A DNA stretch of 21,000 nt from a virus, in the IMG/VR virus record IMGVR_UViG_3300003409_000015, positions 17,315-38,314 of that record; one strand, written 5' to 3'. Positions 1 through 20,530 of this stretch are shown here, in pieces. The notes below the pieces were generated by a model. That model did no database searches, had not been told where the DNA came from, and worked only from the letters and a program-made list of their open reading frames with translations. Each line of letters begins with the position of its first letter. The stretch's first letter is position 1. A program made the translations under genes and the position numbers.

Positions 1-3000
1 GTATTTGTATTGAATCCACGACCACCAAAGCTATCTGCTTCTCCGTCATCGTTATACGTACTTCCGTCATCTGGATTACGTAGTCTTACTTCAAATATAC
101 CACCATTAACAACGTTTGCACTATCTACTGCTGCGCCAAAACCTGCACCTGAAATACCGTATGTAGCAGTTGTATAGTCTTGACCTGCATTAGTATATTC
201 AACATGTAGTACTTCGTTACCGTCAGTTAATACATAACCAATTTGTGCTTCTAATTTGCGGTTATCAATTGTACCAGTGATTGGAACTTCTGTTTCGTCA
301 ACACCTTCTGATACAGCGCCGAAGTCGCCATATGAACAGTTACCGTTAGTGCCACGAATCTTACCGCCTTCTTCTGCTAGATAACCAATGTGTCCATAGT
401 ATGAGAAGATACTAACAAGTTCTGCTCTACCTAAGTTAGTTACCCATGCACCAATACCGTCACTTAGTACCTGTGTAAAGTCGTTAGCAACAATCGAATC
501 GTTACCGCCATCGTGGATGGCACCGTCTACTTTAATACCTACACAGCCTGTACCAAATGTTGTTACACCTTGTACATATGGTGAACGTGTTTGAATCCAT
601 ACACGGTCGTCTTCTGTTCCCCAACCTGGATCAAGTGATGTATATGCACCTGCTGTTGGACGCTTAGTACCGTAGCTGTTTGCTGCTCCAAGTGTACCAT
701 TTAATCCAGCTGTTGTCATGTTACGAATACCAGTTGCATCTCGTAGTAAGTACATGTTTTCTAATTGTGAACCTTGTACACTGTTTGTGTAGAACAAGCC
801 TGCCATTAGTGTTTCATAGTTACCCGGATATGCTAGGTCGTATTTAAATGCATCAATATATGCGCGAACGTCACGCTCACATGCAGTTTCGTCGTAATCG
901 TAAGCAGGATAGTCATCGTTGATCTTGCTAGTAACTTCTCTAGCAATGAAGTCTTTGTTAAGCTCTAGCAATCTAATTGCACGATAAATTTGCTCATCAT
1001 CAACTCGGGTATTATTGCCACCAAATACTGGTGCTGTTGAGTCACCAGTAGCACCATTGATTTCATAATCAATTTTATCATATAGCTGTTGTACTAGATT
1101 TTGCACAAGTGTAGCTGTTCCTGCATCTGCATGAGGAAGACTATCATCTTGTGTTAATGTGTTGCCAGTTGTTGGTGTAATAGGATTACCAGTTACGATA
1201 TCATCGATAACATCTTGTAAGTGTACAAGACCTGCTAGTGAGTATGTAACATCGCCCGAACCTGTTAATTGTCCTGCTGGCTCAACTCTTGTTGAACGTA
1301 GTTCGTCACCTTGGATCACACAGCGTTCTGGAACACGGATTGGAAGTACTTCAGTAAATCTTCCTGTCTTAACCATAATGCTTGTATGACGCTTAACTTC
1401 TGCTGGAAGAGTCAAACCACCGCCTAGTGTAATTGAATTTTTCATTACAGTGTGCAATGTTGTAATGTCTGTTAATACACCAGTTTCTGCAGGCTTGCTA
1501 GTATCTTTAACTTGGATATACTGATTTGCTAGTGCAATACTACCTTCTGTCTGATAGTTTACATCTGGATCGACACTGTTGATAACTTTATCAATTAGTA
1601 CTAGTGCATAATCAAGTGCAGCAACGTTTTGAGATTCGCCGCCTACGTTAAACCAGTCACCGTCTGTCTGATTAATAAATGTATTTGCAACACGTCTTGT
1701 GTTTACATTTCCGCCCTTGCGTATATCTAAAATAACTGCGTCTATTACAAATCCAACAATACGTTCAAACTCTAACTGATCAAAATCAAAACCAATGAAG
1801 AACGGATCAGTTTCTGTAACAATCTGACGCTTAGTCCATTCACCTACTTCTTTTTGGATATAAGTTCTGTTAACTTCTAGCAAATAAGTTGCGTTAGGTG
1901 CCTTTGTACCTTTTTCAACTTGTTCTGCTGCATAACGGATTGTTTTCCAAGGACGGTCTAGTGTAATACCGTAGCTAGGCGCTGGAGAGTCTACACCGTT
2001 GCTAGCAACATAATAAACATCATCAGTTGCACCAAAGTCTGTCCATTCTGGAATACCAGCAGCACTAACACTTAATACTTGACCTTCTTCGCCAATTGGC
2101 AGTCTTGCTGGTCCTGATCCACTTTGATAAAGGATATCACCTTCTGTAGTTAGAGCACTTTCTTCAGCACCTGATGCTAAGTTATTCCAAAAGTCGCCTA
2201 GTGAATCGTTGTCTGGACGATTTGCTGTTTCTGATGTGTGTGCAGCAATACAAATGTAGCTGATTAGACCATAGCGTACTGCGTCACCTGCATCATAGAA
2301 AGTAGCAGTTAACCATTCATCTTTCCATTCAATACCCTGGTTTAGTCTTTCCCAGTATGTTGCGTTTGGTGGACGTTGTCCTTCGTGATTAGTAACACAA
2401 AGATATGTATAGCCGCCTAGTCTTACAACATCACCTACACGATATTCTTGGTTAGTTGAGTCGTCTCCCCAGTCGCCACGGTTACGGAACCCGGTTGTTA
2501 ATAAGTCCCACGAATCATCTACGCCAGGCTGTCTATTGTAGTTGTTTACAGTAGCAACATATCCAAAACCACCAAATGTTACAAAGTCACCTGGTTGATA
2601 ATTTCTATTATAGTCCCAAGTGTTTTCAAATTCTAATCCTGGTACAAAAATTTCCCAGTTGTCTTGATCTGCTTTTAGTGTACCTGTTCCTGAATCGTCA
2701 GCTGGTACAACTGAAGTGTGGGGAACTGTACAAATCCAAAGCGTAGCACCGTACTTAACAACATCGTTTACTTTGTAGCGTGTTGCATTCGCCCATGTGC
2801 CTTTGTAATCGAAACCTTCGTTTAAGTAATCCCATTTTTCTTGGTCGTCTTCTAATCCTAGACCACTAGTTGCGGCAGAAGTGTGGCCTTGGTTACAAAC
2901 ATAAGTTGTTCCACCAAACTTAACAATGTCGTTTACTTTATAACGGGTGCTAGTAGCCCAAGTTGCTTTCCACTCAAGACCTTCGGAGAATAAGTCCCAG

Positions 3001-3479
3001 CTGTTTTGATTAGCTTCTAATCCTAGAGCATCTGTAACAGCAGCAGTGTGACCAGTGTTACAGAAGTAAATATTACCTCCGTACTTGACCAAGTCGTTTG
3101 CTTTGTACTGTGTACCTGCAACCCAATCTGATTTCCATTCAATAGATGTAGCAAACAGATCCCATTTTTCTTGATCGTCTTCAAGAATTGAGCCAGCTAA
3201 GTGTCCTTCGTTACAGATATACAAAATACCACCGTATGCTACGATGTCATTTTCTTTATAAAACGTTCCTGTTGTCCAGTCGTTTTTCCATTCTGTACCG
3301 TCACTAAACTTGTTCCAATGATCCTCGTCATTGTAAAAGTTTGATGATGCTGTATGTCCGCGTACTGCTACATATGTTCTACCACCGTAGCGAACAATAT
3401 CGTCCTTTAGATATTCTGTACTAGGAGACCAAACTCCTTTCCATATAAATCTAATTCTACCTAACTTAAATTCTGCCAT
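1..3479 (-). CDS. Giant modular virion/adhesin protein A (partial, 3' end off window)
   Basis: The reading frame starts at ATG 3479 and stays open to the left edge, giving at least 1159 residues without its C-terminus. A GGAG Shine-Dalgarno lies 7 nt upstream of the ATG. Visible layout: residues 1-440, eight tandem repeats of a chitin-binding (CBM5/12-like) type with W-K-x-x-W, D-I-V-x-Y-G-G and Y-x-C/A-x-x-x-H-T; near 457-470 a fibre-like RLPIG-x-x-GQVL motif; from 487 YYVASNGVD, the start of a pectin-lyase-like beta-helix; 709-734 a helix strand ending GDELRST; 529-601 and 831-894 two copies of a predicted helical module (DFI/YIQ...ERDV...D-A...D-L...GGN/PGN); 964-1054 a block with SPYVQGVTT, VANDFTQVLSDGIGAW and GHIGYLAEEGG. 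It is a paralogue of protein B and aligns with it up to about B residue 1035. Late promoter upstream at 3507. Role as a tail-fibre or surface adhesin is inferred; no signal peptide or membrane segment is seen. Confidence 0.9.
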   Translation of the reverse strand, partial: MAEFKLGRIRFIWKGVWSPSTEYLKDDIVRYGGRTYVAVRGHTASSNFYNDEDHWNKFSDGTEWKNDWTTGTFYKENDIVAYGGILYICNEGHLAGSILEDDQEKWDLFATSIEWKSDWVAGTQYKANDLVKYGGNIYFCNTGHTAAVTDALGLEANQNSWDLFSEGLEWKATWATSTRYKVNDIVKFGGTTYVCNQGHTSAATSGLGLEDDQEKWDYLNEGFDYKGTWANATRYKVNDVVKYGATLWICTVPHTSVVPADDSGTGTLKADQDNWEIFVPGLEFENTWDYNRNYQPGDFVTFGGFGYVATVNNYNRQPGVDDSWDLLTTGFRNRGDWGDDSTNQEYRVGDVVRLGGYTYLCVTNHEGQRPPNATYWERLNQGIEWKDEWLTATFYDAGDAVRYGLISYICIAAHTSETANRPDNDSLGDFWNNLASGAEESALTTEGDILYQSGSGPARLPIGEEGQVLSVSAAGIPEWTDFGATDDVYYVASNGVDSPAPSYGITLDRPWKTIRYAAEQVEKGTKAPNATYLLEVNRTYIQKEVGEWTKRQIVTETDPFFIGFDFDQLEFERIVGFVIDAVILDIRKGGNVNTRRVANTFINQTDGDWFNVGGESQNVAALDYALVLIDKVINSVDPDVNYQTEGSIALANQYIQVKDTSKPAETGVLTDITTLHTVMKNSITLGGGLTLPAEVKRHTSIMVKTGRFTEVLPIRVPERCVIQGDELRSTRVEPAGQLTGSGDVTYSLAGLVHLQDVIDDIVTGNPITPTTGNTLTQDDSLPHADAGTATLVQNLVQQLYDKIDYEINGATGDSTAPVFGGNNTRVDDEQIYRAIRLLELNKDFIAREVTSKINDDYPAYDYDETACERDVRAYIDAFKYDLAYPGNYETLMAGLFYTNSVQGSQLENMYLLRDATGIRNMTTAGLNGTLGAANSYGTKRPTAGAYTSLDPGWGTEDDRVWIQTRSPYVQGVTTFGTGCVGIKVDGAIHDGGNDSIVANDFTQVLSDGIGAWVTNLGRAELVSIFSYYGHIGYLAEEGGKIRGTNGNCSYGDFGAVSEGVDETEVPITGTIDNRKLEAQIGYVLTDGNEVLHVEYTNAGQDYTTATYGISGAGFGAAVDSANVVNGGIFEVRLRNPDDGSTYNDDGEADSFGGRGFNTN
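2160..3470 (-). repeat. Eight-copy chitin-binding-like repeat array in protein A
   Basis: Eight degenerate repeats of about 50-60 residues each. Each opens with an aromatic W/Y/F-K-x-x-W core (for example FIWKGVW, TEWKNDW, IEWKSDW, LEWKATW), continues with Y-x-x-x-D-I-V-x-Y-G-G-x-x-Y-x-C/A and ends with H-T-S/A followed by a W-x-x-x-x-x-G linker. The pattern resembles carbohydrate-binding module families 5/12 (ChtBD3-like). Family assignment rests on pattern recognition alone; a glycan ligand is inferred. Confidence 0.75.
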
Positions 3480-3516: not shown

Positions 3517-6500
3517 TTATCCGTTAAAGTCATCCTGCGATGTCATTGCTGCCATAAACAATGAATTTGCAAGCATGTCTCCATCCACTCCGCCGGTAAA
3601 GTTTGTAGTTTCACTGAAGTTAACAATACCTTCAGTAGTTCCTATTTCGTTATTTGTAGCAAATACAACACCTGCTGTAATTTTGTTAGTAAACAGCGTT
3701 GCTCCACCACCTGTAATACGATTTTCTAAGTAGTCTCCAATTGCTCTCTGTGTAGGAATAATTGCATCTGAGTTTGCAGTCATTGTATTATCTGTTGAGA
3801 ACTCTCTAATTGTAGCCTGTGTACCGCCTACTTGAATACCACCTAGTCTCAATTCATCTAGTCCGCCTAGATCAAAGAAGTCTGCGTTTAGTGTTAAGCC
3901 ACCTGATGCCTGTGCAACTCGGAATAGTTCACCTACTCTAAAGTTACCGTCTTGGTCAGTACTTGTGTAGAACACTCGTCCACCATTGGCTTCGACAATT
4001 TCGTTTGCCTGGCGTGTTTCGTTAATAGCTTCACGACCAAATACATATAGCTCTGGATAGTTTGTATCTTCAAAGTTACCAGTACCAATGTCTAGGAAGT
4101 CATGTCCTGTTAGTCGTACTTGTGAAAAGTCCTCACGTATTGTAATTGCTTCTTCATGATCTGGCGAAGTATCAATTGCAATCAATGGACTAATTCTTAC
4201 CTTAATATCAAAATTAGGTGCTACTCCGCTTGTCTCTTCAACAAGTACAATACGATAGATTGTATCTGGTTGACCTGCAAGACGTAAGTTTGATCCTGGA
4301 CCTGGAACTTTTGCAACATTTTTAAGAACTAAGCTTTGACCTAGCTGATAAATGTCAGCATATCCGTTGCCTGTTAGTGTAGTTACAGCAGTAATATATC
4401 CGGTTCCTCTATTATAAAATGTCGGCTGCGGTAGTACTCCGTCATTAACATTTGTTTGTATTAACGGTTCGATATACTCTTCCGGATCTGTTACTGTAAC
4501 TAAAGGTGTAGTTGCGTAACCTGAACCTGGATCTAAAACAATAAATCTGTTTAAGTTATTGTTAGCAACGGTTACACGCATTAATGCTCTACGTCCGCCA
4601 GTAATAGTAACACCTGTGTCTGATCCGTCTTTGGTTAGCCATGTAGGTTGTCCGTTTACTACGCCGCCTGCAACAGATCCGTAACCTGGTAAGTCAGCAC
4701 GTTGTATCCAGTTTGCACTATCATCCGACGTTAGTAGTGTTCCGTTACTACCTACAGCAATAAATTCGCCGCCAGCATAAGCAATATTCCAATCTTGGCG
4801 TACTGAGTCGCCTACTAGATCACTGTCTAGCCAGTTTACACCGTCTGGTGAGTAAAAAATTCTGTCTGCATCATTTACAGAAGCAACAAATTTGTTGTCT
4901 CCCCATACAATTTCGTTATACGCTTCGGGGCTAGACGGTGCAGGTAAAAGTCCACCTGTCCATGTATCGCCGTTGTCTTGACTATAAACTGTGTACCCGT
5001 CTGAACTAATGGCAATCCATAAGCCTGCACCATATGTAATGTCTACCCAGTCTCTGCTAGCTGGTAAACTTACTGTTGTCCATGTATCAGGAGCAATACT
5101 CGAGTCCACACCTTGTGTAATTGTACCTTTTAGAACATTATCTTGTCCAGTAGCACATAAAATTACAGTATCGTTGTCTCTACCACCAACTGCAACACCT
5201 GTCCAGTCCCATGTTTGACCTAAATTTACATAGTCCCATAGTGTTCCTTCGTTTGAGTAGTGCAAATTAGCAGATCCTTGCGATGCAATCAACATCATTG
5301 GACCGCTTTTAGCAATAGCACTCCATGTAGCACTATTTTCTAGCTGATTAGTTGTCCAAGTTGTACCGCTATTAGTACTTACCTCAACATCATTAGTACC
5401 GCTTAGTGCATAGTAGAAGTTTCCACCTGCAAAACCCATAATTCCTAGTCCTGCACGAGTTACGTTAGTTGTACTATTCCAGTCTGGATCTGCAACACTT
5501 ACTCTAGGTTCAATTTCGTACTTAGTAGTTTCGTCAAGTGTTAATTCTATTTGATTTGCACCAAGAATATTGTCCCAACCAATAGTATTTGTTGATTCTT
5601 TGTACACCGTAACTAGCTTGCTAACTTCATTATACGACTGAATCCAGCCATATTGACTTACACCTCGGCCGCTTGTAATATAAATTCTCATTCCAACAAG
5701 CTGCGCTGACAATCTTTCTTCAGATTGTGCTAGTGTAATAGTTGTTGCAGTGCCACTTTGAGCAAAATTAGTAATAAATTTATAACCTGCGCCGCCGGCT
5801 GTACTACTGTCTTCTGGTTTTAGAATTCTAACATCACTAACAGCATTATCACGGAATTCGTTCCATTCAACGTCTAGTCCTGTTCCTGCACTGTTAATAG
5901 TATTAATACTTGCACTTGTATAATGTTGTCCTGCATTAAAATATCCAAATGCTATTACTTCGTCAGTATCAGTATATGTTTTTTGTACCTGTGCTTCTAA
6001 ACTTTGGTTGTTTACTTCGCCGGTAACTGGAATTTCTGTAGCTGAGAATCCTTCAGCAACTGAACCAAATGTACCATACGAGTTGTTACCGTTAGTAGCA
6101 CGTAAAATACCACCTTCTTCTGCAAGATATCCAATATGTGCATAGTATGTAAACACAGATACAAGCTCAGAGCGTCCTCCATTTGAGGCCCAATACCCAA
6201 TTCCGTCACTTAGTACTTGTGTAAAGTCGTTGGCAACAACACTTCTGTTTCCGCCGTTATGCAATGCACCGTCAATCTTCATACCTACACAATTATTACC
6301 AATTGTTGTAACACCTTGTACATAAGTCGACTTATCACGTACCCATACACGCTGATCATCTGGGCCTTCACCTGGGTCAAGACTTACAAATGCGCCTCCT
6401 GTTGGACGTTTTGTTCCGTAATCGTTAGCGTCTGATAGTAAACCAGTCAATCCTTTCATCGATAACTGTCTAATACCACAGCCGTTGCGTACATAGAACA

Positions 6501-8865
6501 TGTCTAGTTCATTGTTGTTTGTAGGAATAACTAGTTCTTCTTGCGGTTGAATAATGCCGTGCAAGTTAGTTCTTTCGCTTAATATAACATCCCTTCCTTC
6601 TTCTGCAGGACGAATTGTAGTAGAACGTAATTCGTCTCCTACAATAGCAACGTCTTCAGGAACAATAATCGGAAGGATTTCTGCATAATCACCAGTCATT
6701 ACACGAATAGTGGCTCCGCCGCGCGGTGGATTTTTAACTAGAGCAGGTAAACTTCCTAGTCCGTTTGCTACTACGTCAGTAACGATTGCCATATAGTCTG
6801 TAACTTCGTCAGCTGCACCTGTTTCAGATGTAAATGCATCAGTATATTGTGTACTCTTTGTTTGAATACTCGAATATAGTGAGTTTGCTATTACGTAATC
6901 ATTAATTAGGTCACGTGCAAAGTTTAAGGCTGCAACAGTTTGATCCTGTTGACCATTTACTAAGCTAACTGCACCATTCCAGTAAGACTGTGCAGATCTT
7001 CTTGTCTGCTCATTACCGGTATATGTCATATCTGTAGCCATACTATTAACAATAATAGCTACATCTCTAGCACATTTTTCTGCATTATAAGTAAAGCCGC
7101 TCCAAATACCTGTTCCTGCTGCTACATTTGCATCAATCCATGCTGTTGTTTCGTCTTTGATAAAATCTACGTTCTTTCTCATCAAGTTTGTTGCTCTTTC
7201 AAAGAATCTATCACGCAATCCTGAACGATTCTTTTCGTCACGTAGAATATAATTACATGCAAAGCGCAATGTACGGAACGGAGCGTTTAATGTTCCGCCT
7301 TGCGATTCGTCGTCGATGCCATGTGTTGCAACATAATAAACATAATTGTGCTTATCAATACTATCCCACGCTGGCAAGTTTGATGTAGCTCTTAATGCTT
7401 GTCCTGTTGTACCAATTGCTAAACGCTGTGTGTCAACTGCTGTACTGTCTTGATCATCGTATGTTTTAATATCACCAACTCTTGCAAGTTTGTTAGTTAA
7501 TGTACCTTTGATCATGTATTTCCAGTAAGTGTCATCTGTATTGTTGACATCTAGATCTGGACGACTGTCTGATTCTGTAGATCTATGATATTTTAGTGCA
7601 ATATAGCTAGTACCTTGCCAAGTAACAATATCACCTGGATAGTATTCTACATCGTCTTCCCAAACATTACGGAATTGGCGTCCATCCGATAATACTTCCC
7701 AAACATTTGGATGCAAATCTGGTTGTTGGTTAAGGTTGTCAGCTGTTGCAAGATATACATTTCCAGAAAAACGAACTACATCACCAGTTCTATAATTTAT
7801 AAAACTAGAATCTTCGTTTTGAGTATTCCACTCTCCGAGAAATCTATATGCTACTAGGTTTAAATCCCAATCACTAGGGTTAGTACTTGGAATTGTACTT
7901 ACATTATAAGTTAATGCTTTATATGTGTAACCACCGTAACGTGCAATATCGCCTGGTTGATAGCGTGTACCGTCTTCCCATTCGCCTTCGTATTCTTGTC
8001 CTGGTAGATATACTTGCCATTTATCGCCATCGTCGGTAAATTCTTCACCCGATACGTGTGCAGTAATACATTTTACTGCTGACGGGCCTCTTTTTACAAC
8101 ATCGTTTACACGATATTTAATTTCAGGTGTCCAATCAAATCTATAATCAGTACCTTCGACTAAAATTTCCCATTTACCTTGGTCTTGTTCTAGGCCAATA
8201 TCGATATTATCTGCACTTGTATGTCCAATTGCACAACGATATACAATACCGCCATATTTAATAATATCATTTGTTCTGTAGCGTGTGCCAATACCCCAGT
8301 CGCCGCGCCAACTGTCGCCGTCTGATAATACTGCCCATTTGTTTTGATCTGATTCAAGACCTACAGCATTTGTCGAGGCAGAAATATGCTGTTCTAGTGC
8401 CTTGTAAACACGACCATTATAGCGTACAATGTCGTTTCGTCTGTATAGTGTGTTAGTTGACCAGTTGTATTTCCAATCTGTGTCTGATACAGCAACTACT
8501 TTCCATTTAGTAATGTCTTCAATAAGACCGTCTGTGCCTGAACTAAATGTTGGGCTTGATACGTGTTCTTCGATACATTGATAAATGCCTGAACCATACT
8601 TAACAATAGCGCCTTCTGAATACGTTGTGCTAGTTGCCCAGTTTCCTTTCCATACTACACCGTCGGATTGTAGTTCCCATTTTGGTCTTGCCGGACTTAC
8701 ATCTGCACCTTCAATGTCATTAGAAAAAGTTGATGCTGTGTGTACTCTTAACGCTACGTAGGTTTTACCTTCGTATTCGATCATATCGTCAACTACATAG
8801 TCTGATCCTGATGTCCAAGATCCTTTCCATGTAAATCGAATTCTATTTAACTGAAATTCTGCCAT
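3517..8865 (-). CDS. Giant modular virion/adhesin protein B with beta-propeller
   Basis: Complete protein of 1782 residues. I take ATG 8865 as the start because it gives MAEFQLNRIRFTWKG, matching the MAEFKLGRIRFIWKG start of protein A; an in-frame TTG six bases upstream (8871) is less likely. AAAGG lies 11 nt upstream. Layout: residues 6-449, eight chitin-binding-like repeats; about 480-490 RLAIG-x-x-GQAL; 507 onward YYVATHGID and a beta-helix core, with GDELRSTTIRP near 745; 559-626 one helical module (DFI...CARDV...YTGN); 841-936 STYVQGVTT to GYLAEEGG; about 1122-1419 repeated Asp-box-like units (STNSGTTW, SQDNGDTW, SPDGVNW, SDDSANW) that indicate a beta-propeller; 1432-1542 GSGYATTP-type strands; 1631-1651 VFYTSTDQDGNFRVGELFRV; then a fibre-like C-terminus. 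Probably a virion adhesin; the function is inferred from domains. A late promoter lies directly upstream. Confidence 0.93.
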   Translation of the reverse strand: MAEFQLNRIRFTWKGSWTSGSDYVVDDMIEYEGKTYVALRVHTASTFSNDIEGADVSPARPKWELQSDGVVWKGNWATSTTYSEGAIVKYGSGIYQCIEEHVSSPTFSSGTDGLIEDITKWKVVAVSDTDWKYNWSTNTLYRRNDIVRYNGRVYKALEQHISASTNAVGLESDQNKWAVLSDGDSWRGDWGIGTRYRTNDIIKYGGIVYRCAIGHTSADNIDIGLEQDQGKWEILVEGTDYRFDWTPEIKYRVNDVVKRGPSAVKCITAHVSGEEFTDDGDKWQVYLPGQEYEGEWEDGTRYQPGDIARYGGYTYKALTYNVSTIPSTNPSDWDLNLVAYRFLGEWNTQNEDSSFINYRTGDVVRFSGNVYLATADNLNQQPDLHPNVWEVLSDGRQFRNVWEDDVEYYPGDIVTWQGTSYIALKYHRSTESDSRPDLDVNNTDDTYWKYMIKGTLTNKLARVGDIKTYDDQDSTAVDTQRLAIGTTGQALRATSNLPAWDSIDKHNYVYYVATHGIDDESQGGTLNAPFRTLRFACNYILRDEKNRSGLRDRFFERATNLMRKNVDFIKDETTAWIDANVAAGTGIWSGFTYNAEKCARDVAIIVNSMATDMTYTGNEQTRRSAQSYWNGAVSLVNGQQDQTVAALNFARDLINDYVIANSLYSSIQTKSTQYTDAFTSETGAADEVTDYMAIVTDVVANGLGSLPALVKNPPRGGATIRVMTGDYAEILPIIVPEDVAIVGDELRSTTIRPAEEGRDVILSERTNLHGIIQPQEELVIPTNNNELDMFYVRNGCGIRQLSMKGLTGLLSDANDYGTKRPTGGAFVSLDPGEGPDDQRVWVRDKSTYVQGVTTIGNNCVGMKIDGALHNGGNRSVVANDFTQVLSDGIGYWASNGGRSELVSVFTYYAHIGYLAEEGGILRATNGNNSYGTFGSVAEGFSATEIPVTGEVNNQSLEAQVQKTYTDTDEVIAFGYFNAGQHYTSASINTINSAGTGLDVEWNEFRDNAVSDVRILKPEDSSTAGGAGYKFITNFAQSGTATTITLAQSEERLSAQLVGMRIYITSGRGVSQYGWIQSYNEVSKLVTVYKESTNTIGWDNILGANQIELTLDETTKYEIEPRVSVADPDWNSTTNVTRAGLGIMGFAGGNFYYALSGTNDVEVSTNSGTTWTTNQLENSATWSAIAKSGPMMLIASQGSANLHYSNEGTLWDYVNLGQTWDWTGVAVGGRDNDTVILCATGQDNVLKGTITQGVDSSIAPDTWTTVSLPASRDWVDITYGAGLWIAISSDGYTVYSQDNGDTWTGGLLPAPSSPEAYNEIVWGDNKFVASVNDADRIFYSPDGVNWLDSDLVGDSVRQDWNIAYAGGEFIAVGSNGTLLTSDDSANWIQRADLPGYGSVAGGVVNGQPTWLTKDGSDTGVTITGGRRALMRVTVANNNLNRFIVLDPGSGYATTPLVTVTDPEEYIEPLIQTNVNDGVLPQPTFYNRGTGYITAVTTLTGNGYADIYQLGQSLVLKNVAKVPGPGSNLRLAGQPDTIYRIVLVEETSGVAPNFDIKVRISPLIAIDTSPDHEEAITIREDFSQVRLTGHDFLDIGTGNFEDTNYPELYVFGREAINETRQANEIVEANGGRVFYTSTDQDGNFRVGELFRVAQASGGLTLNADFFDLGGLDELRLGGIQVGGTQATIREFSTDNTMTANSDAIIPTQRAIGDYLENRITGGGATLFTNKITAGVVFATNNEIGTTEGIVNFSETTNFTGGVDGDMLANSLFMAAMTSQDDFNG
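7520..8850 (-). repeat. Eight-copy chitin-binding-like repeat array in protein B
   Basis: Eight repeats of the same type as in protein A, opening with FTWKGSW, VVWKGNW, TDWKYNW, DSWRGDW, TDYRFDW, QEYEGEW, YRFLGEW and RQFRNVW. Repeats 5 to 8 lose the leading tryptophan, and repeats 6 to 8 largely lose the H-T/H-S ending, in parallel with the matching repeats of A. This suggests the whole array was inherited as a unit before A and B diverged. Confidence 0.75.
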
Positions 8866-8894
8866 TTTCAATAATACCTTTTATCTTTATCTAT

Positions 8895-9606: not shown

Positions 9607-12600
9607 TTACAATAGAATTGCAAACTTAATTGCAATGTCCTCTGCGTCATTAAAACTTACAGCACCAGTTGATCCTGCAACAGATACCCAGTTGCCGCCA
9701 ATATCATAAATCTCAACACGATCTTCGACTGTGTTGTAGCGCATCATACCAGTTTCTGGTGTTGGATGGCGTTCTTCGTTGTTACCCGATGGAATAACAA
9801 ATCCGCCTGTGCCAGGTACTTTAAAATATCCTGTTCCAACCTGTTCTAGTACTGTGACATCGCCGTCTACTAGGTTAGTAATTGTTCCGCCGTTAAATGC
9901 AAAGTTCTCAATACTAATAGTACCAGTACCGTTTGCACGTAGTTCTAAGTCTTGATTAGTGGTAATAGTTTGTAGTGTATTACCACTAATTTCAATGTCG
10001 TCAACTTGCAGTTTAGCTACATCAAATCTTTCTGTATTTACATCAGCTACAAGTACACCACCTGCATAAAAACGTAATGTATCATCGTCTGCACCTGGAG
10101 TAAGTTCTGGCGTAATGTATGTATCGCGGTCTTGATCGTACACACCGCCTAGCTCTGACCATTCACCGTCATATGCTTCGAAAACACCACTTTCAGTATT
10201 GTAACGAATCATACCAACTTCTGGAGTTCCGGGGCGTTCTGCTGTTGTACCTTTTGGAATTACTAAACTACCAGTGCCTTGTATTTCTACAACATCTGCA
10301 CTTGGTGATAATATAATACTTCCTGAATCATTAGTAATAGTATTATCTTTAATTTTGATATCGTCAATAACAACACTACCAGAAGCATTAGTAATAAGGT
10401 TGATATCACCTACTGAGTCTGTAGCCTTAATGTAGTTATCATTAATTTCTAGTGTGTCTACTAGTACCTTGCCAGTATGTAATTCTTGCCATGCAAGATT
10501 TTCGCTACCTAAATTATAAGTGTCAGTCACAGCTGGAAGTAGATCACTGTCAATTGCTGCTGTGATTTGAATACTATCAGTTGCAGCATCACCTAGTGTA
10601 ATGTTGCCGCCAATTGTTACATTACCAGTAACATCTAAACTACCTGTAATATTAACATCATCTTGTAGATTAATTGTTCCGCTTGCTGCGTCAAAGTTTA
10701 AGTCGCCGCTGATACTTTCTACAGTATTACCGCTGAATTTAATATTACCTGTTTGTACTTTTGTGCCGTCAATGATTGTAGTGTTACTACCGTCGGTAAA
10801 TGTAATACCTTCGTTATTATTAAACAAGAATTCTGCATTTGTAAACGAAACTTCACCAGTTTCTTGGTTAACACGGAATAAATCGCCTACTCTAAAATCA
10901 CCTTTGTGATCAACTGTTGAGTAGTAAACATTTGCATCGTTTAGAGAAACAACTTCGTTTTCTTGAATAACAGTGCTTGTATCGTTGCTAACATCTTTAC
11001 CATTACCAATATATGCAAAGTTTTGTCCAATTAGATATGCAACAACACCCGGACCGTCAGCATAGATACCATAGTTGCCGTAAACACTAGCACTTGCAAT
11101 TGCACGAATTTCTGCACCAAAGTCTGAGTAATCAACCAGCTCAAATTTTTCAGCAGTGTCGCCGCCACTGAATCTAATATCTTGTACAAATTGATTATCG
11201 TCTACAATAACTTGACTTCCAGTTTCGCCGTCCATGTGTAACATTAAAACAGTAGTTGAAGTTACAGGAAGTGCTGTTGTAGGAGCAGTAAAATTACTAC
11301 TATAACCGCTACCTTTTCTAACTCTAAAATCGTCTATTCTTAAATGAGCTGCATTATTACCTGTATAATCTGCTCCTAATTTAAGTGATTTAGTTAAACC
11401 TAAATTTGTAGAATTACTATTAGAAGATATATTACTACCATTAAGATATATTATCAAGTTAGATGAAACTCTTGAAACAGCAATATGATACCATGTATTT
11501 GAAACTAAAGTATTAGCTGGTTCTAATATATCAGTTTGACCAATTGCTAGTTTTAAATTTTTACTAGAATCTATTCTAAGATTTAGCCCTGCTGCATCGA
11601 TAGCACTTCCGGCTCTAAGATCAAAAAGATAACTGTCACTTACAGGATCAGATAATAATCTAAACCAACCTTCGATACTAAAGTCACCTGTACCAAATCC
11701 AAAGTCGGGTTGTGTTATTATTTCTGCATAATCGTCAGTCCCGTCTAATAGAAGAGATGCATTGCCTATTTGAGAAACATTTTGACTTATATTTGCGCCA
11801 TTTTTAGCAGTTACAGTTTTTCTTGCTCTTGTAGGTGCAAGTGACCAACCAGTTACTTTGCCGTCTAAGTAAAAATAATCTCCGTCGGCAGTTTCTACAG
11901 TTCCGGTTGCTAGTACAGTTGTACCGTCTGTATCGTAATATGTTAGTGTTTCGCCATTAGCAACGGCGCCGCTTAGGCCACTTACTTTTAGTTTAGTTTT
12001 ACCATTACCTGCAATGCCATCTGCACTATCATAAAAGTCCATACCCCTGTCAGCAAAGTATGTAAAGCTGTTAAGCCATTCTATTCTTGCACCGTTAGTA
12101 GCTTTTAAAGCTGTAACGCCTGGAGTAATAAATGTAACGGCATGGAAAAGCATACTTGCTTCCCTGCTAGTTGATGCAACTACACTACCGTCTAAGAATA
12201 CACCGGCTCCTGCGTCACCTGCATCAAATCCTCTTGGATCTGCACTAGTAACTGTAGTACCTTGTGTAATGACACTTATATTACGCACATAAGGTGAACG
12301 TTGTGTTACGTTCATACTTGGCGCAAAGCGGAAAGCATATCCTTTATCGTTATTACTGTCGTAATAGAAGTTTTTAATAGTAAGTTCTTCAACAGTTGAC
12401 TCGCCGTTCATTAAGAACACGTCTTCTGATTGGCTAGTGCTGTCTGGTGTAATTTCAACACTACGTAGACTTTCACCGCGTACTGTTACGCCTTGTGGAA
12501 CTGTTAGTGGAAATACTTCTTGATATTGTCCTGGATACAAATAAACAGTATCGCCTGCTTGTGCAACACTTAGTGCAAATTCAATTGTTCTAACTGGGTC

Positions 12601-13329
12601 TTGTGGATGTGCTCCAGTAGATAAATCTGAACCGTTTTGTGCTACGTAAATAACATTACCGGGTGTTGAAGTTAAATCTAAGTCACCAAAGTCAATATCG
12701 TTGGTTGTTAGTGTATCGACATATGTGTTGTTTACATACGCTGTTAACCAACGTTTTGTTTCGCTACCAATTGAATAAATTTCATTTTGATCTGGAATAA
12801 TGTCACTTGCAATTTCAGCGTTAATTGTAATAGTATCAGTATCTTCGTCACCAATTTGAATGTCGCCGTCTGCTGTAATATTACCAGTAGCATGAAGGTT
12901 ACCTGTAATAGTAGTATTACCTTCAATGTTAACGTTACCAGTGCCATTGGCTCTAATAAACAAGTCACTGTTAGTGTTTGTATTTTCAATAAAACTATCG
13001 TTAATTTCTAAGTCGCCAACAAGAACTCTATTACCGACAATAACACTGTCAGTAGTTGCAATTCTAAATTCTTGTGCGCTTGTAGAAATTGTATTTGTAC
13101 TACCGTTAATTGTTACATTACCGATATTAAATACTGGATTTGTGATTTCTAAATCTGTTACCCGTGCTATACCATCAACATCGAGGGGATATTGCGGACT
13201 TGTTGTTTTAACACCGATTCGACGGTTGTTAACATCAAGATATAAGAGGTCTGTCTCAAACGCTAAATCTACTCCATCACGTAGTAGATTCGACTTCAAG
13301 AGCGGACCGGAAATACGACCAATTGCCAT
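9607..13329 (-). CDS. Giant modular virion protein C with LamG-like domain
   Basis: Complete protein of 1240 residues with a very strong AGGAG five nt before the ATG. The N-terminus (RISGPLLKSNLLRDGVDLAF, then GVKTTSP) is a virion-protein start seen in T4-like cyanophages and shared with protein D. Layout: 222-290 beta-helix core with YVAQNGSD, YLYPGQYQEVFPL and RGESLRSVEI; 344-375 SPYVRN to DPRGFDAGDAG; 415-428 EWLNSFTYFADRGM; about 520-722 a LamG/ConA-like jelly roll (LLLDGTDDY, FSIEGWF, WYHIAVSR, LIIYLNG, IDDFRV); 745-759 SVYGNYGIYADG; 800-822 VYYSTVDHKGDFRVGDLFRV; then fibre-like repeats with GD-x-x-TD...SDLLP; two RYNT motifs at 1039 and 1192. It heads a three-gene unit with its own late promoter and long leader. 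Likely a receptor- or glycan-binding virion protein (inference). Confidence 0.93.
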   Translation of the reverse strand: MAIGRISGPLLKSNLLRDGVDLAFETDLLYLDVNNRRIGVKTTSPQYPLDVDGIARVTDLEITNPVFNIGNVTINGSTNTISTSAQEFRIATTDSVIVGNRVLVGDLEINDSFIENTNTNSDLFIRANGTGNVNIEGNTTITGNLHATGNITADGDIQIGDEDTDTITINAEIASDIIPDQNEIYSIGSETKRWLTAYVNNTYVDTLTTNDIDFGDLDLTSTPGNVIYVAQNGSDLSTGAHPQDPVRTIEFALSVAQAGDTVYLYPGQYQEVFPLTVPQGVTVRGESLRSVEITPDSTSQSEDVFLMNGESTVEELTIKNFYYDSNNDKGYAFRFAPSMNVTQRSPYVRNISVITQGTTVTSADPRGFDAGDAGAGVFLDGSVVASTSREASMLFHAVTFITPGVTALKATNGARIEWLNSFTYFADRGMDFYDSADGIAGNGKTKLKVSGLSGAVANGETLTYYDTDGTTVLATGTVETADGDYFYLDGKVTGWSLAPTRARKTVTAKNGANISQNVSQIGNASLLLDGTDDYAEIITQPDFGFGTGDFSIEGWFRLLSDPVSDSYLFDLRAGSAIDAAGLNLRIDSSKNLKLAIGQTDILEPANTLVSNTWYHIAVSRVSSNLIIYLNGSNISSNSNSTNLGLTKSLKLGADYTGNNAAHLRIDDFRVRKGSGYSSNFTAPTTALPVTSTTVLMLHMDGETGSQVIVDDNQFVQDIRFSGGDTAEKFELVDYSDFGAEIRAIASASVYGNYGIYADGPGVVAYLIGQNFAYIGNGKDVSNDTSTVIQENEVVSLNDANVYYSTVDHKGDFRVGDLFRVNQETGEVSFTNAEFLFNNNEGITFTDGSNTTIIDGTKVQTGNIKFSGNTVESISGDLNFDAASGTINLQDDVNITGSLDVTGNVTIGGNITLGDAATDSIQITAAIDSDLLPAVTDTYNLGSENLAWQELHTGKVLVDTLEINDNYIKATDSVGDINLITNASGSVVIDDIKIKDNTITNDSGSIILSPSADVVEIQGTGSLVIPKGTTAERPGTPEVGMIRYNTESGVFEAYDGEWSELGGVYDQDRDTYITPELTPGADDDTLRFYAGGVLVADVNTERFDVAKLQVDDIEISGNTLQTITTNQDLELRANGTGTISIENFAFNGGTITNLVDGDVTVLEQVGTGYFKVPGTGGFVIPSGNNEERHPTPETGMMRYNTVEDRVEIYDIGGNWVSVAGSTGAVSFNDAEDIAIKFAILL
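11165..11770 (-). other. LamG-like domain inserted in protein C
   Basis: This segment encodes a concanavalin-like jelly roll of about 200 residues, recognised from its ordered LLLDG-x-x-DY, FSIEGWF, WYHIAVSR and IYLNG strands. The corresponding place in the paralogue D has no such domain. The stretch 11341-11460 has 29 G+C in 120 bases by hand count (24%), against 24 in 60 (40%) at 10561-10620 in the same gene, consistent with separate acquisition. Confidence 0.75.
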
Positions 13330-13468: not shown

Positions 13469-16400
13469 TTAGTCTAGGATAACGTTCCAAAGGAAGTTTA
13501 ATTCTTCAACATCAGCTTCTTCTAGAGATTCGACATTACCAATTGAGATTTGCCACTGTGTTCCTGTATAAACTTCTAGATATTCTTGTTCAGTGTTGTA
13601 ACGAATATGTCCACGTTCTGGACTTACAGGACGAGCTGCATCATTGCCGAACGGAGTAACAATACCACTTACGTTATCAATTTTAAGATAAGAAGTTCCA
13701 ATAGTATCGGTTAGATTAAAACTAAATGTTGGTGCAGCGGTTGTATCACGCAATACACCGTTTTGGAATGTTAAATCTTCAATAATAGTTTTACCTGTGC
13801 CGTTAGAGCGCAAATAAACTCTTCCGTTTGTTTCTGCACTTGTAACTATATTACCGTCAATTTTAAATTTATTATCACTTGTAAATTGATCAGTAAATAA
13901 TCCAAAATTATTTAAAACTGCACGGCTAGTATTGTCAGTTACAAAGCTATATTGATTATTAGATAAGTCTAAGAATGTTCTGCGTGATGTTGAAAATATG
14001 CCTTCTAGCGATACACTACCGATTCCTACTACACCTTCAAAAACATCAAAGTCTGTGTTATATCTTAGACCACCTGTAACAGTTGGACGTTGGGCAGTGG
14101 TACCTTTGTTAACTAGCAAGTGACTAGTTGCGTCTATATCAAGATTATTAGTAGCTAATACAAGATTTCTAGTAGTTCCGCCGATATTGTTTGTAACAGC
14201 TTCCCAGTAGTCTAACACGGGTTCTGTTGTTGGAAAACTATAATTACCTGATTCTATGATTCCGATTATAATTCCGTCTGCTAGTCTTAAATCGCTAGGA
14301 GATGCAGGCGTCCATAGGTCTTCTATGTCTGCATCCCTCCAAGTATTTGATCCTGCATAAGTTGACAATGCAAGGTAAAAATACTCATAAACTAAATTTT
14401 CATAATTTAAACCTGTAGGGTCAGTATACCGTGCAAACGGTGGATAGTTATAACTTGGTAGTCCACCTGCTTGGAATCCTCCACGAGCATTATCCATAGC
14501 AACTGTTAACGCTGTAGGACGATTAAAGCCTAAATCGCTGTATGCAACTGTGTAACCTTGTTTGATAAGGAAATATCTTAAAATTCTTTCTAATGTTTGA
14601 TCTCTGTTCCCGCCAACACTATCACCTTGGAAATTGTTCATTTCATTTTCATAAACACTTGTTGTACGTGATTTCCAAGATCCTAATGCAGCATTTATTA
14701 CTGTTTCGTCAGCACTATTTGCATAGACAACAATTCCTTTGTCGCCGTTGATAAATTCTGCATACATAGTAGCATCGTCAACTACTCCGTCGTAGTCATT
14801 GTCTAAATATCCTGCTAATAAGTTAGCTGCATGAATCATTGCAGCACGAGATGCTAGTGCAGTACGCATTACTGGAATGCCGTATACTTCTACACTTTCT
14901 GGAAAATACTGTGTCAAACTTTCAAAACTATCAAAAATTTCTAGAGATGATTCGTCAGTCTCAAGTACCGTAAATTCGCCAGCTCTATCAAATTTACTTG
15001 CAATAGTATTATCACTTATTTCTACATTTTCAAAATATACTTTACCAGTATTGTTTGCACGTAGTTCTAAATCAGCGTTACTTAATGTTGTACTAATACT
15101 TGTAGGAGAAATTGTAATGTCATTAATCGATGCAAGATTAACGTATGTATTACGCCACGTTTTACCAACATCACCAATTTTATGAGCTTCACTTCCGCCC
15201 GGTAATAGATCCTGTTCTAGTCTAACATTAAAGTCTACAGTATCAGTAGGTTCGTCACCGATATTGATTACTGTACCACCAATAGTAATATCGCCTACAA
15301 TATCTACATTTCCTGATACATTAGTGTTTGTAAGGAAGTTTAAATCTGTTGTAAATGCTTTTAAGTTTAAATCGTTACTGGTTGTAAGTACTGTATTTCC
15401 AGTAACATAAATGTTGTCAAGGCGTAATTGAGTAGCATCAATGTATGCTTCTGAGTCGTCACCAATAATTTTAACAACGGAGTTAGTAGCAAAGATACTT
15501 TCAATATCAAAAGTAGTCCTACCGTTTACTTGATCTACTTGAAAAAAGTCGCCTACATTAAAATTGCCTTTTTCATCTTGACTTGTGTAGTAGACTTTTG
15601 CATCATTTGATGTTATAGTAATATTGTCTGCATTTGATAAACTTGCATCGTTTGACGAATCTTTGCCTGCGCCAATGTAAGCAAAGTTATGATTGATTAA
15701 ATAAAATATACAATCAGCGCCATCGGCCTCGGCACCTACGTTGCCGTATACGTTTGCACTGCCAATTGAACGCAATTCTACACCATACTGTCTTGTGCTG
15801 TCAGGTAATAAACGACCTTGCTCGCCTTGGCTTGCAACCATACCTTTGCTGGCAAAATAAATGAAGCTGTTAAGCCATTCAACTCTTACACCATTACGCA
15901 TTACAATACATTCTACACCTGGTGTAAAGAATGTTGCACTTTGGAACAACATAGTAGCATTTGTACTATTTTCGTTTACATTACGACCATCGATAAGGGC
16001 ACCTCGTCCTGCATCACCCGAGTCATAACCTCGTGGATCGCTAGGTGAAGTTGTTGTGCCTTTCGTAAGTACAGTTACATTACGAATATAAGGACTACGT
16101 GCACCTGATACATAATCGTCTGCAAAACGGAAAGCATATCCTGTATCTGCTTCACTGTTATAGTAGTAGTCTTTAATAGTGACATTTTCTATGTTTGATC
16201 CGCCTTGAAAAACAAATGCATCATTTGATTGCGTTTCTGTAGTTGGATAAATTTCTACGCCTCTTATACTGTCACCTTGTATAGTAACGTCACTAGGTAC
16301 TACTAGAGGAAAATCTTCTTGATATTGTCCAGGATAGATGAAGATGTTATCACCTGGCTGTGCAATACTTAATGCTTTACCTAGTGTAGCAAAAGGACCT

Positions 16401-17518
16401 CCTGGGTGTGTACCACGGTTTAAATCAGATCCATTGTTTGTTGAGACAAAAATGTTTCCTGTGCTTTTAGTTAACTCGATACCTTGATAAACAATGTTAT
16501 TAGCTCTTACATACGATGTATCTAAGGTTTCTACATATAAATCAAATCGTTTCCCTTCATCGGGGCCAGTACTATCGTCGTCTCTACCAATTGTATAATT
16601 AGCGTCTAGATCAGGAATAAGATCACTTGCAAAATCTGCTAAGAATCTTGCATTGTCGGTAGAATCGTCACCAACTGTTAAATCTGTTCCGCCGTATGTA
16701 ATGTTACCAGTTGCATGAACATTACCATTAACATTTAATGTGCCGCCAGTTTGTAATTGTAGATCTCTTGGAACACTTCTCGGATAATGTGTTTCTACGT
16801 ATGTTTTAAATGCTTCAGTATCTGCATGGTCTGCTAGTGTACGTGTTGCTGGAAAATATGCACCATTAATAAACTGACTGTTCATTTGCAGAATATCAAG
16901 TGCATCGTCTACTTGAACATCGCCGTCGCCGTCAAAATCAAATGCTGCTAGTTGTTCTGGTGTAGGGTTTCCTACTTGTGCAATTGCAAGTGCTTCTTGA
17001 TATAATCTGTCGCCGTCGTTTTCTGGAGCATCTGCACTATTTTTTGGACCTGGATACCAATAGTCACCGTAGTTTTGATCATAGTTCCATGCTTCGGTCA
17101 TGCCTGCAAGATATGTTGATCTAATGCCTACATTTGCATTAGTAACAATCGACTCAATTGCACCGTTGTCTTTTACAGCAAAGTTAAAACTACCTAAACC
17201 TCCAGTAACAATATAACCTGCTGGATCTGTACTTAAAATATTAATATTGCCAGTAGGCGCACTAGCGCCTTCAGTACTAATAGTTAAGTCGCCGATTGTT
17301 AGACTATTATTAAAAATAATATCTGGGTCGCTAGTACCACTAGCTACTTTTAGTGTACCGTTTACTGTTAAATCGCGGGGAGTAGTTGTAGTGTTTACGC
17401 CAAGTGTACCGTTGCGTTTTACTACAAGTAAATTAGTATCAAATGCTAGATCGGCTAGTTCTCTTTCGAGATTTGCAAATAATAGCTGACCGCCAATTCG
17501 TTGTACTTGTTGTGCCAT
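13469..17518 (-). CDS. Giant modular virion protein D with EF-hand and calcium-site domain
   Basis: Complete protein of 1349 residues; GGGAG lies 7 nt before the ATG. The N-terminus (RIGGQLLFANLERELADLAF, GVNTTTTP) is paralogous to that of C. Layout: 190-208 a single EF-hand/dockerin-like loop, DFDGDGDVQVDD; 280-305 GDDSTD...SDLIPD fibre repeat; 353-423 beta-helix core (VSTNNGSD, YPGQYQEDFPL, QGDSIRGVEI); 470-505 SPYIRN to DPRGYDSGDAG; 547-560 EWLNSFIYFASKGM; 640-660 VYYTSQDEKGNFNVGDFFQV; 752-773 second fibre repeat; about 848-1107 a separate domain containing DNDYDGVVDD (903-914), AMDNARGG and YEYFYLALS; then two RYNT motifs and a fibre-like end. Late promoter 17537 sits directly upstream. 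Probably a virion adhesin stabilised by calcium; location and ligand are inferred. Confidence 0.93.
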   Translation of the reverse strand: MAQQVQRIGGQLLFANLERELADLAFDTNLLVVKRNGTLGVNTTTTPRDLTVNGTLKVASGTSDPDIIFNNSLTIGDLTISTEGASAPTGNINILSTDPAGYIVTGGLGSFNFAVKDNGAIESIVTNANVGIRSTYLAGMTEAWNYDQNYGDYWYPGPKNSADAPENDGDRLYQEALAIAQVGNPTPEQLAAFDFDGDGDVQVDDALDILQMNSQFINGAYFPATRTLADHADTEAFKTYVETHYPRSVPRDLQLQTGGTLNVNGNVHATGNITYGGTDLTVGDDSTDNARFLADFASDLIPDLDANYTIGRDDDSTGPDEGKRFDLYVETLDTSYVRANNIVYQGIELTKSTGNIFVSTNNGSDLNRGTHPGGPFATLGKALSIAQPGDNIFIYPGQYQEDFPLVVPSDVTIQGDSIRGVEIYPTTETQSNDAFVFQGGSNIENVTIKDYYYNSEADTGYAFRFADDYVSGARSPYIRNVTVLTKGTTTSPSDPRGYDSGDAGRGALIDGRNVNENSTNATMLFQSATFFTPGVECIVMRNGVRVEWLNSFIYFASKGMVASQGEQGRLLPDSTRQYGVELRSIGSANVYGNVGAEADGADCIFYLINHNFAYIGAGKDSSNDASLSNADNITITSNDAKVYYTSQDEKGNFNVGDFFQVDQVNGRTTFDIESIFATNSVVKIIGDDSEAYIDATQLRLDNIYVTGNTVLTTSNDLNLKAFTTDLNFLTNTNVSGNVDIVGDITIGGTVINIGDEPTDTVDFNVRLEQDLLPGGSEAHKIGDVGKTWRNTYVNLASINDITISPTSISTTLSNADLELRANNTGKVYFENVEISDNTIASKFDRAGEFTVLETDESSLEIFDSFESLTQYFPESVEVYGIPVMRTALASRAAMIHAANLLAGYLDNDYDGVVDDATMYAEFINGDKGIVVYANSADETVINAALGSWKSRTTSVYENEMNNFQGDSVGGNRDQTLERILRYFLIKQGYTVAYSDLGFNRPTALTVAMDNARGGFQAGGLPSYNYPPFARYTDPTGLNYENLVYEYFYLALSTYAGSNTWRDADIEDLWTPASPSDLRLADGIIIGIIESGNYSFPTTEPVLDYWEAVTNNIGGTTRNLVLATNNLDIDATSHLLVNKGTTAQRPTVTGGLRYNTDFDVFEGVVGIGSVSLEGIFSTSRRTFLDLSNNQYSFVTDNTSRAVLNNFGLFTDQFTSDNKFKIDGNIVTSAETNGRVYLRSNGTGKTIIEDLTFQNGVLRDTTAAPTFSFNLTDTIGTSYLKIDNVSGIVTPFGNDAARPVSPERGHIRYNTEQEYLEVYTGTQWQISIGNVESLEEADVEELNFLWNVILD
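14200..14975 (-). other. Inserted calcium-site domain in protein D
   Basis: About 260 residues between two fibre-like repeats, absent from paralogue C. Ordered landmarks are VYGIPVMRTA, HAANLLAGYLDNDYDGVVDD, LERILRYFLIKQGY, AMDNARGG, LVYEYFYLALSTYAG and FPTTEP. From memory these match, in order, a family of uncharacterised secreted proteins of marine bacteria and some animals, which carry EEVLHLI where this protein has LERILRY. The homology is a recollection and not a search result. Confidence 0.5.
16895..16950 (-). other. Single EF-hand/dockerin-like calcium loop in protein D
   Basis: The encoded DFDGDGDVQVDD has acidic or amide residues at loop positions 1, 3, 5, 7, 9 and 12, glycine at 6 and a hydrophobic residue at 8, an exact canonical EF-hand loop, followed by a helix ALDILQM. 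A PTPEQLAAF segment precedes it, as in dockerin-type repeats. Only one copy is present. Confidence 0.75.
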
Positions 17519-19884: not shown

Positions 19885-19893
19885 GTATTTATC
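19885..19893 (-). promoter_or_regulatory. T4-type late promoter box overlapping the glycosyltransferase stop
   Basis: The minus strand reads GATAAATACAATG, and the TGA stop of the glycosyltransferase supplies the GA at the start of the box (TGATAAATAC). The match to the T4 late consensus core ATAAATAC is exact. It would drive the operon from the 125-residue gene through the 174-residue gene. Confidence 0.75.
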
Positions 19894-20530
19894 ACTTTGC
19901 TGTAGTACTTAAATCTTTAACACGCCCTATATATGTTTCATCAAGTCTTACTACACTAGCAGTCACACTTTTAATATCAATAAAAGTATTTTCTATAAAT
20001 CTGTCTACGCTTTTTATTCCTTTACGTTGAGCACGTTTTATTAACTTTTTTGCTCCTTGAGGACTAACTACGTAACCATAGTATCCTACGTAATGCGTAT
20101 TAAATTCAGTCGGTAGTTTTAATATTTGTATTTCTTTAGTTAAACTATTTTTAATTTGGAGTTCGTAATCGTTCTTCCAGTGCATGAATGGCTCTAATCT
20201 TAAGACATCTATAAAATCTAAGTTACTAGGTAATGGTCTTAGAAAAACTCCGTCATGTTCACATATAACAATAGGTTCTTGTAAAGCAATACACTTTTGC
20301 CAAAGTTGAAAGTGTGCAAGAAAACACCCTTGCTGACCTTTAAGTTTAGATTCAAGGCTTGCTATTTTAGTAATACCGTAAGGCGCAAATTCTTCTTTAA
20401 ATGTTTTTGTAATTTTTACACCAGGGTGCATGTGTGCGTCTAGTCCAAAACTCTTAGCTATTTCTATATTTTTATAGCCAAGTTTCTCGCCTAAATCGTG
20501 TCTAGGTAATATAATGTGGAATGACTTCAT
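19892..20530 (-). CDS. Glycosyltransferase, family 25-like
   Basis: The 212-residue product is about the usual length for a single-domain GT25 (LPS-type) transferase. Landmarks in order: MKSFHIILPRHD at the N-terminus; GCFLAHFQLWQKCI near residues 89-102, the family G-C-x-x-S/A-H-x-x-x-W motif; VICEHDGVFLRPLP near 108-121, where EHD takes the place of the usual E-D-D metal-site motif; and GYVVSPQGAKKLIKRAQ near 148-165. It is cytoplasmic and presumably transfers a sugar to a phage or host glycan; donor and acceptor are unknown. It sits between the capsid gene and the fibre genes, behind a terminator, so it probably has its own promoter. No Shine-Dalgarno is visible before the ATG. The stop overlaps the next late promoter. 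Confidence 0.85.
   Translation of the reverse strand: MKSFHIILPRHDLGEKLGYKNIEIAKSFGLDAHMHPGVKITKTFKEEFAPYGITKIASLESKLKGQQGCFLAHFQLWQKCIALQEPIVICEHDGVFLRPLPSNLDFIDVLRLEPFMHWKNDYELQIKNSLTKEIQILKLPTEFNTHYVGYYGYVVSPQGAKKLIKRAQRKGIKSVDRFIENTFIDIKSVTASVVRLDETYIGRVKDLSTTAK

Follow-up and report, generated by a model that had tools for sequence, protein, structure and literature searches.

Marine T4-like phages possess a host-recognition cluster in which tail fibres are found together with glycosyltransferases (PMC7029224). YHYH and concanavalin A-type binding domains have been reported in the structural proteins of these phages (PMC7029224). Another relevant group consists of zincins with substituted active sites. 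In these proteins histidine is replaced by arginine or lysine above expectation, and the literature treats such substituted sites as inactive (Lenart 2013, PMC3650047). Here we describe a domain in a phage virion protein that recalls both systems.

The domain is part of protein D, a virion protein of 1349 aa from the tail/baseplate-fibre region. Its gene occupies 13469-17518 on the minus strand of the window, by which we mean the whole 21,000-nucleotide stretch of DNA analysed; every feature of the window located below lies on that strand. The window was taken from a 39-kb IMG/VR virus record that also contains a Gp23 capsid gene. Protein D was assigned from its open reading frame together with PHROG and cyanophage matches: residues 345-566 match PHROG baseplate wedge families (E = 3e-88), and residues 346-719 are 39-46% identical to cyanophage gp7-type baseplate wedge proteins. 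The carrier is thus homologous to virion tail/baseplate proteins and lies within a structural cluster, where PHROG tail fibre matches also occur. Two tail-fibre-like proteins (3-3479 and 3517-8871) each have seven CBM5/12 repeats of the chitin-binding type. A virion protein paralogous to protein D (9607-13329) has a LamG/concanavalin-type lectin domain at residues 529-670 and no EExxH-like domain. A glycosyltransferase family 25 gene (19892-20530) lies between virion structural genes. This neighbourhood fits the kind of host-recognition cluster reported from marine T4-like phages. The N-terminal part of protein D includes DFDGDGDVQVDD (residues 194-205; 16904-16939), a dockerin/EF-hand-like calcium loop.

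An earlier note, made from the sequence by a reader who ran no database searches, placed at 14200-14975 a possibly captured domain resembling a family of uncharacterised secreted proteins. The EExxH-family domain proper (residues 866-1101; 14216-14923) does lie there, although the full inserted segment is slightly larger (residues 836-1108; 14195-15013). Four peptides had been quoted: HAANLLAGYLDNDYDGVVDD (residues 896-915; 14774-14833), LERILRYFLIKQGY (976-989; 14552-14593), AMDNARGG (1007-1014; 14477-14500) and YEYFYLAL (1044-1051; 14366-14389). All four are found in the protein D open reading frame, and these landmarks occur in the same order in a bacterial family. The domain is also present at 100% identity in a 92-kb contig, IMGVR_UViG_3300025608_000013.

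Single-sequence searches with the domain gave no match in Pfam, NCBIfam, PHROGs, the PDB, INPHARED phages or PLSDB, and no relatives came from an initial scan of genomes in which the alignment was phage-heavy. The bacterial family was reached solely through peptide-pattern scans. A degenerate pattern, AxYLDNDxDG, scanned against GTDB genomes, returned at least 119 loci, mostly from marine bacteria and spread over many phyla; 58 near-complete domains from the first 80 loci made up a bacterial-only profile. This profile matches residues 866-1101 of protein D at E = 7e-38 (127 bits, profile positions 5-242 of 245), a value that rejects chance matching, and it matches 30 viral open frames in total. 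That family is real, and profile similarity to it, on which the earlier claim depended, was found. By homology the phage domain belongs to this family: it has the H of HAAN, the YLDNDxDG loop, the Asp before EE, the first Glu, ARGG and YP, even though the nearest bacterial sequence is only ~30% identical. It falls outside the site-bearing subtype, and it is found inside a large virion protein, not as a separate secreted protein with a signal peptide or lipobox.

The bacterial family is secreted, mostly marine, unstudied and without a name. It comprises 118 open frames in a profile search of the fetched genome loci, some of which overlap, with secreted or lipoprotein-like N termini; judged by eye, many members have a lipobox-like N terminus, and one (L078) has a type 9 secretion tail. 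The consensus reads VFGI-IYA..KLLHAANVMAQYLDNDEDG..DN...ET...FDA.LEEVLHLIT..GYA.AYP..FGE..GS.LA.AMD.ARGG.F..IP..YP..AWYTYDD.TCDY.CM.TEY.YWALTS.LGAQ...YxLPTxLPDGxY. No model in Pfam or NCBIfam covers the family, 57 members searched against Pfam gave scattered weak matches and no zincin, a PDB sequence search found nothing related, and PHROG contains no relative. Its distribution is patchy and rare: a search of 297 Bacteroidota genomes gave two clear matches, of which one is the centre genome itself. The domain is fused to a TAP-like alpha/beta hydrolase in the Colwellia member (L108) and to a YHYH domain in another (L208). A Cellvibrionaceae genome (L071) has two site-less copies, each in a ~1120-aa protein; the copy that was scanned has long BspA-type LRR arrays, an adhesin-like setting that parallels the phage one. 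In an uncultured Polaribacter (G010:C5), a site-less and a site-bearing copy (L209 and L199) lie ~2 kb apart, like an enzyme/pseudoenzyme pair.

How does the phage domain differ from its bacterial relatives? The bacterial EEVLH aligns with LERILR within the altered motif D973-QTL-E977-R978-IL-R981 (14576-14602). E977 is kept; R978 stands where 54 of the 58 cellular domains have Glu, and R981 where 54 of 58 have His. The loss of a conserved histidine and one acid, as first suspected, is thus confirmed, and the description of the altered site can be refined: the first Glu of EE and a distant Glu are kept, and the replacement is invariably Lys or Arg.

Both parts of the site can be read in 87 distinct bacterial sequences. 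In 82 of them the TEY Glu occurs alongside the second Glu and His of EExxH. In the other five, from Polaribacter, the L071 genome and L086, all three residues are gone (Fisher p 2.7e-8, relatedness not corrected for). Because they are lost together, this covariation points to the second Glu, the His and the distant Glu as one functional site. Invariant in bacteria, site-less copies included, are the first Glu of EE, the H of HAAN and the preceding Asp. H896 of HAAN (14831-14833) is found in all 58 cellular and all 15 phage sequences, and DNARGG (residues 1009-1014; 14477-14494) is near-invariant across the family. The acidic loop DNDYDG (906-911; 14786-14803), in which D908 and D910 become Asn in some phages, may resemble a calcium-binding loop.

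The phage clade, about 20 distinct sequences, always has E-[KR]-x-x-[KR] and keeps the Glu of (x)EY. In protein D, E977-R978-IL-R981 takes the place of EExxH, though the distant Glu remains: E1045, of E1045-Y1046 (14381-14386), is kept in all phages, and the corresponding Glu is lost in the bacterial copies without EExxH. The phage pattern therefore differs from the bacterial losses, since Glu and His become basic residues while their partner Glu stays. At the level of sequence, the site has been replaced throughout the phage clade. Pseudogene decay is rejected by dN/dS values near 0.11-0.17 and by the invariant Lys/Arg. A Lys/Arg salt bridge in place of a metal would be the natural reading of the phage site.

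Further scans show that the phage clade consists mostly of a ~1350-aa protein with the domain at the same place. The clade is monophyletic (100/100 support) on a long stem, and its position among the bacteria is uncertain. In close pairs the domain evolves at dN/dS 0.11-0.17, comparable to the rest of protein D, indicating purifying selection. Six orthologs from related marine phages (L237, L238, L241, L242, L246 and L256) are without exactly residues 836-1108 and align on both flanks, with ~59-60% identity on the N-terminal side and 46-50% on the C-terminal side. The segment is thus a clean optional module, and these empty-site orthologs reject the idea that the carrier architecture requires it. 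The empty-site forms are one clade; outgroup rooting would make that clade a loss of the insert, though the outgroup branch is long. The capture proposed in the earlier note fits both the homology to the bacterial family and the clean insertion into a tail/baseplate protein; judged from sequence, a phage has taken up a domain of this family.

A second phage carrier is found in IMGVR_UViG_3300012950_001160 (L020:4078-9954). There the same domain lies at the end of an open frame of 1965 aa that the contig border truncates. Like protein D, this is a large virion-type protein adjoining baseplate wedge genes, in a baseplate operon. Unlike protein D, it has an intact EEILH, its carrier has no PHROG match, and its domain holds a separate place in the tree. 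It is possibly a virion-borne active form.

What fold might this be? Confident AlphaFold2 models of the Pseudoalteromonas luteoviolacea domain (L105; pLDDT 96.2, pTM 0.92) and of the phage domain (pLDDT 91.3, pTM 0.90) are much alike in the order of their elements. In Foldseek searches of the PDB, M9 collagenase peptidase domains and PPEP-2 make up the twelve best matches of the bacterial model, all weak (E 0.02 upward), with 4l7a and other PPEPs ranking lower. Collagenase and PPEP also lead for the phage model, with other folds mixed in (weak, E 0.17 upward). Neither model has a PDB match under 0.001, and searching viral structure models yielded nothing useful. An HHalign comparison with the zincin family Peptidase_Mx1, an alignment of only two sequences, did no better than shuffled columns. 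A long helix of the bacterial model (109-126) carries the EExxH motif, and a helix further on (173-189) carries the distant Glu, which is the layout predicted for a gluzincin with Glu in place of its first His. The HExxH of zincins is itself replaced, by EExxH in bacteria and by ERxxR/EKxxK in phages. On this weak structural evidence, a zincin fold is the putative assignment for the EExxH family.

We propose, with a probability of roughly 0.55, that the phage domain is a captured extracellular metallo-hydrolase-like domain, disarmed and then retained for binding within the host-recognition cluster. A marine T4-like phage lineage would have acquired, once, a complete domain of the unnamed secreted family, cleanly inserted where the beta-rich middle of protein D gives way to its C-terminal part. 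The bacterial domain is probably a zincin-like metallo-hydrolase, likely a peptidase, whose site combines the EExxH of one helix with a Glu from a helix further along. Disarming in the phage clade would have come about when Lys/Arg took over from the presumed catalytic Glu and from the His ligand. The positive side chains may substitute for the metal by forming salt bridges to those Glu residues that were kept, and so preserve the fold. The resulting protein would be a non-catalytic binding module, most likely directed at a host-surface or extracellular-matrix protein or glycan, and it would adjoin the lectin-like and chitin-binding-type modules of the same cluster. Sticking or holding rather than catalysis is suggested because an active-site-like Glu and His are replaced by positive residues. 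The site-less bacterial copy in a BspA-type LRR adhesin-like protein (L071) offers a supporting parallel. As the earlier note supposed, retention for fold or binding alone is the best inference. The weak Foldseek E-values and the HHalign result with the two-sequence Peptidase_Mx1 alignment count against this proposal. Even site-less copies keep E977, which occupies the place of the first His in HExxH, and it may be structural instead of a ligand; and the L020 protein shows that a phage can retain the site. More tentatively, marine phages may have taken up an unrecognised EExxH metallo-hydrolase class into baseplate proteins at least twice, once as an intact, possible virion-borne peptidase (L020) and once as a receptor-binding pseudoenzyme in which an invariant Lys/Arg pair takes over from the metal.

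Several of these observations could be read otherwise. The clean optional insertion, with orthologs that are otherwise similar without it, would suit a spacer: a stable, knob-like decoration or thickening of the fibre without specific binding, in which selection keeps only the fold, perhaps stabilised by calcium bound at the conserved acidic loop. We think this unlikely. The K/R pair, ARGG, H896 and E1045 are invariant over large divergence, suggesting a conserved pocket, and the domain is located among known binding modules. The secreted or lipoprotein-like character of the family in marine bacteria would fit a decoy that mimics a host extracellular enzyme and binds its substrate, inhibitor or partner on host or competing cells, and the intact and site-less Polaribacter copies are arranged as an enzyme/pseudoenzyme pair might be. 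That the phage domain shares only ~30% identity with its nearest bacterial sequence and that the family is so rare among Bacteroidota make this rather improbable.

Might the domain still be an enzyme with changed chemistry, its K/R pair forming a new active site with E977 and E1045? The strict conservation of K/R in the phage clade would agree with this, as would the retention of E1045, which the bacterial site-less copies have lost. However, we know of no zincin-like enzyme that works with Lys/Arg at both positions. Substituted sites of this type are regarded as inactive (PMC3650047), and we consider new chemistry very improbable. A different question is whether the family is zincin-like at all. 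The fold could instead be a new one, in which E, H and distant E make up a metal or catalytic site of another type that the phage copy has lost. This reading overlaps with the binding-module proposal and rivals only its fold assignment. The structural matches are all weak and no sequence links the family to any zincin; yet nearly all of the bacterial model's highest-ranking matches are zincins, and the arrangement of its two helices, a long one with EExxH and then one that carries the Glu, is that of gluzincins. A non-zincin fold is, in our judgement, doubtful.

The finding has implications beyond this phage. An unannotated secreted bacterial family is now linked to phage virions, and the covariation by which Glu, His and the distant Glu disappear jointly provides the family with an active site that can be tested. 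One phage protein that occurs with the module and also without it, plus a second phage protein that retains the site, make up a clean natural experiment. If the binding role is true, protein D illustrates how extracellular enzymes of bacteria can be taken over by phages for adhesion.

The bacterial family, represented by Pseudoalteromonas luteoviolacea (L105), Colwellia (L108), Saprospiraceae (L043) and Sulfidibacter (L111), resembles the phage domain over its whole length, from VFGI to YxFPTxxPxxxY, with all landmark motifs in order and the same predicted secondary structure. The phage domain differs in the Lys/Arg that replace the second Glu and His of EExxH, in its missing conserved Cys pair and in being embedded in a virion protein. 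M9 collagenase peptidase domains, PPEP and 4l7a, the best structural matches, share an HExxH-like helix and a downstream Glu helix; relative to these zincin metallopeptidases, the family has Glu for the first His, the similarity is weak and no sequence relation was found. The inactive zincins with substituted HExxH, CLCA and others, show the same preference for Arg/Lys in place of His and likewise conserve their substitutions, whereas they belong to a different family and are not described there from phage virions (Lenart 2013, PMC3650047). The YHYH and concanavalin A-type domains of marine T4-like phages (PMC7029224) are also extracellular-type domains within structural proteins; their folds are other than that of the phage domain, and one bacterial member of the family is itself fused to YHYH.
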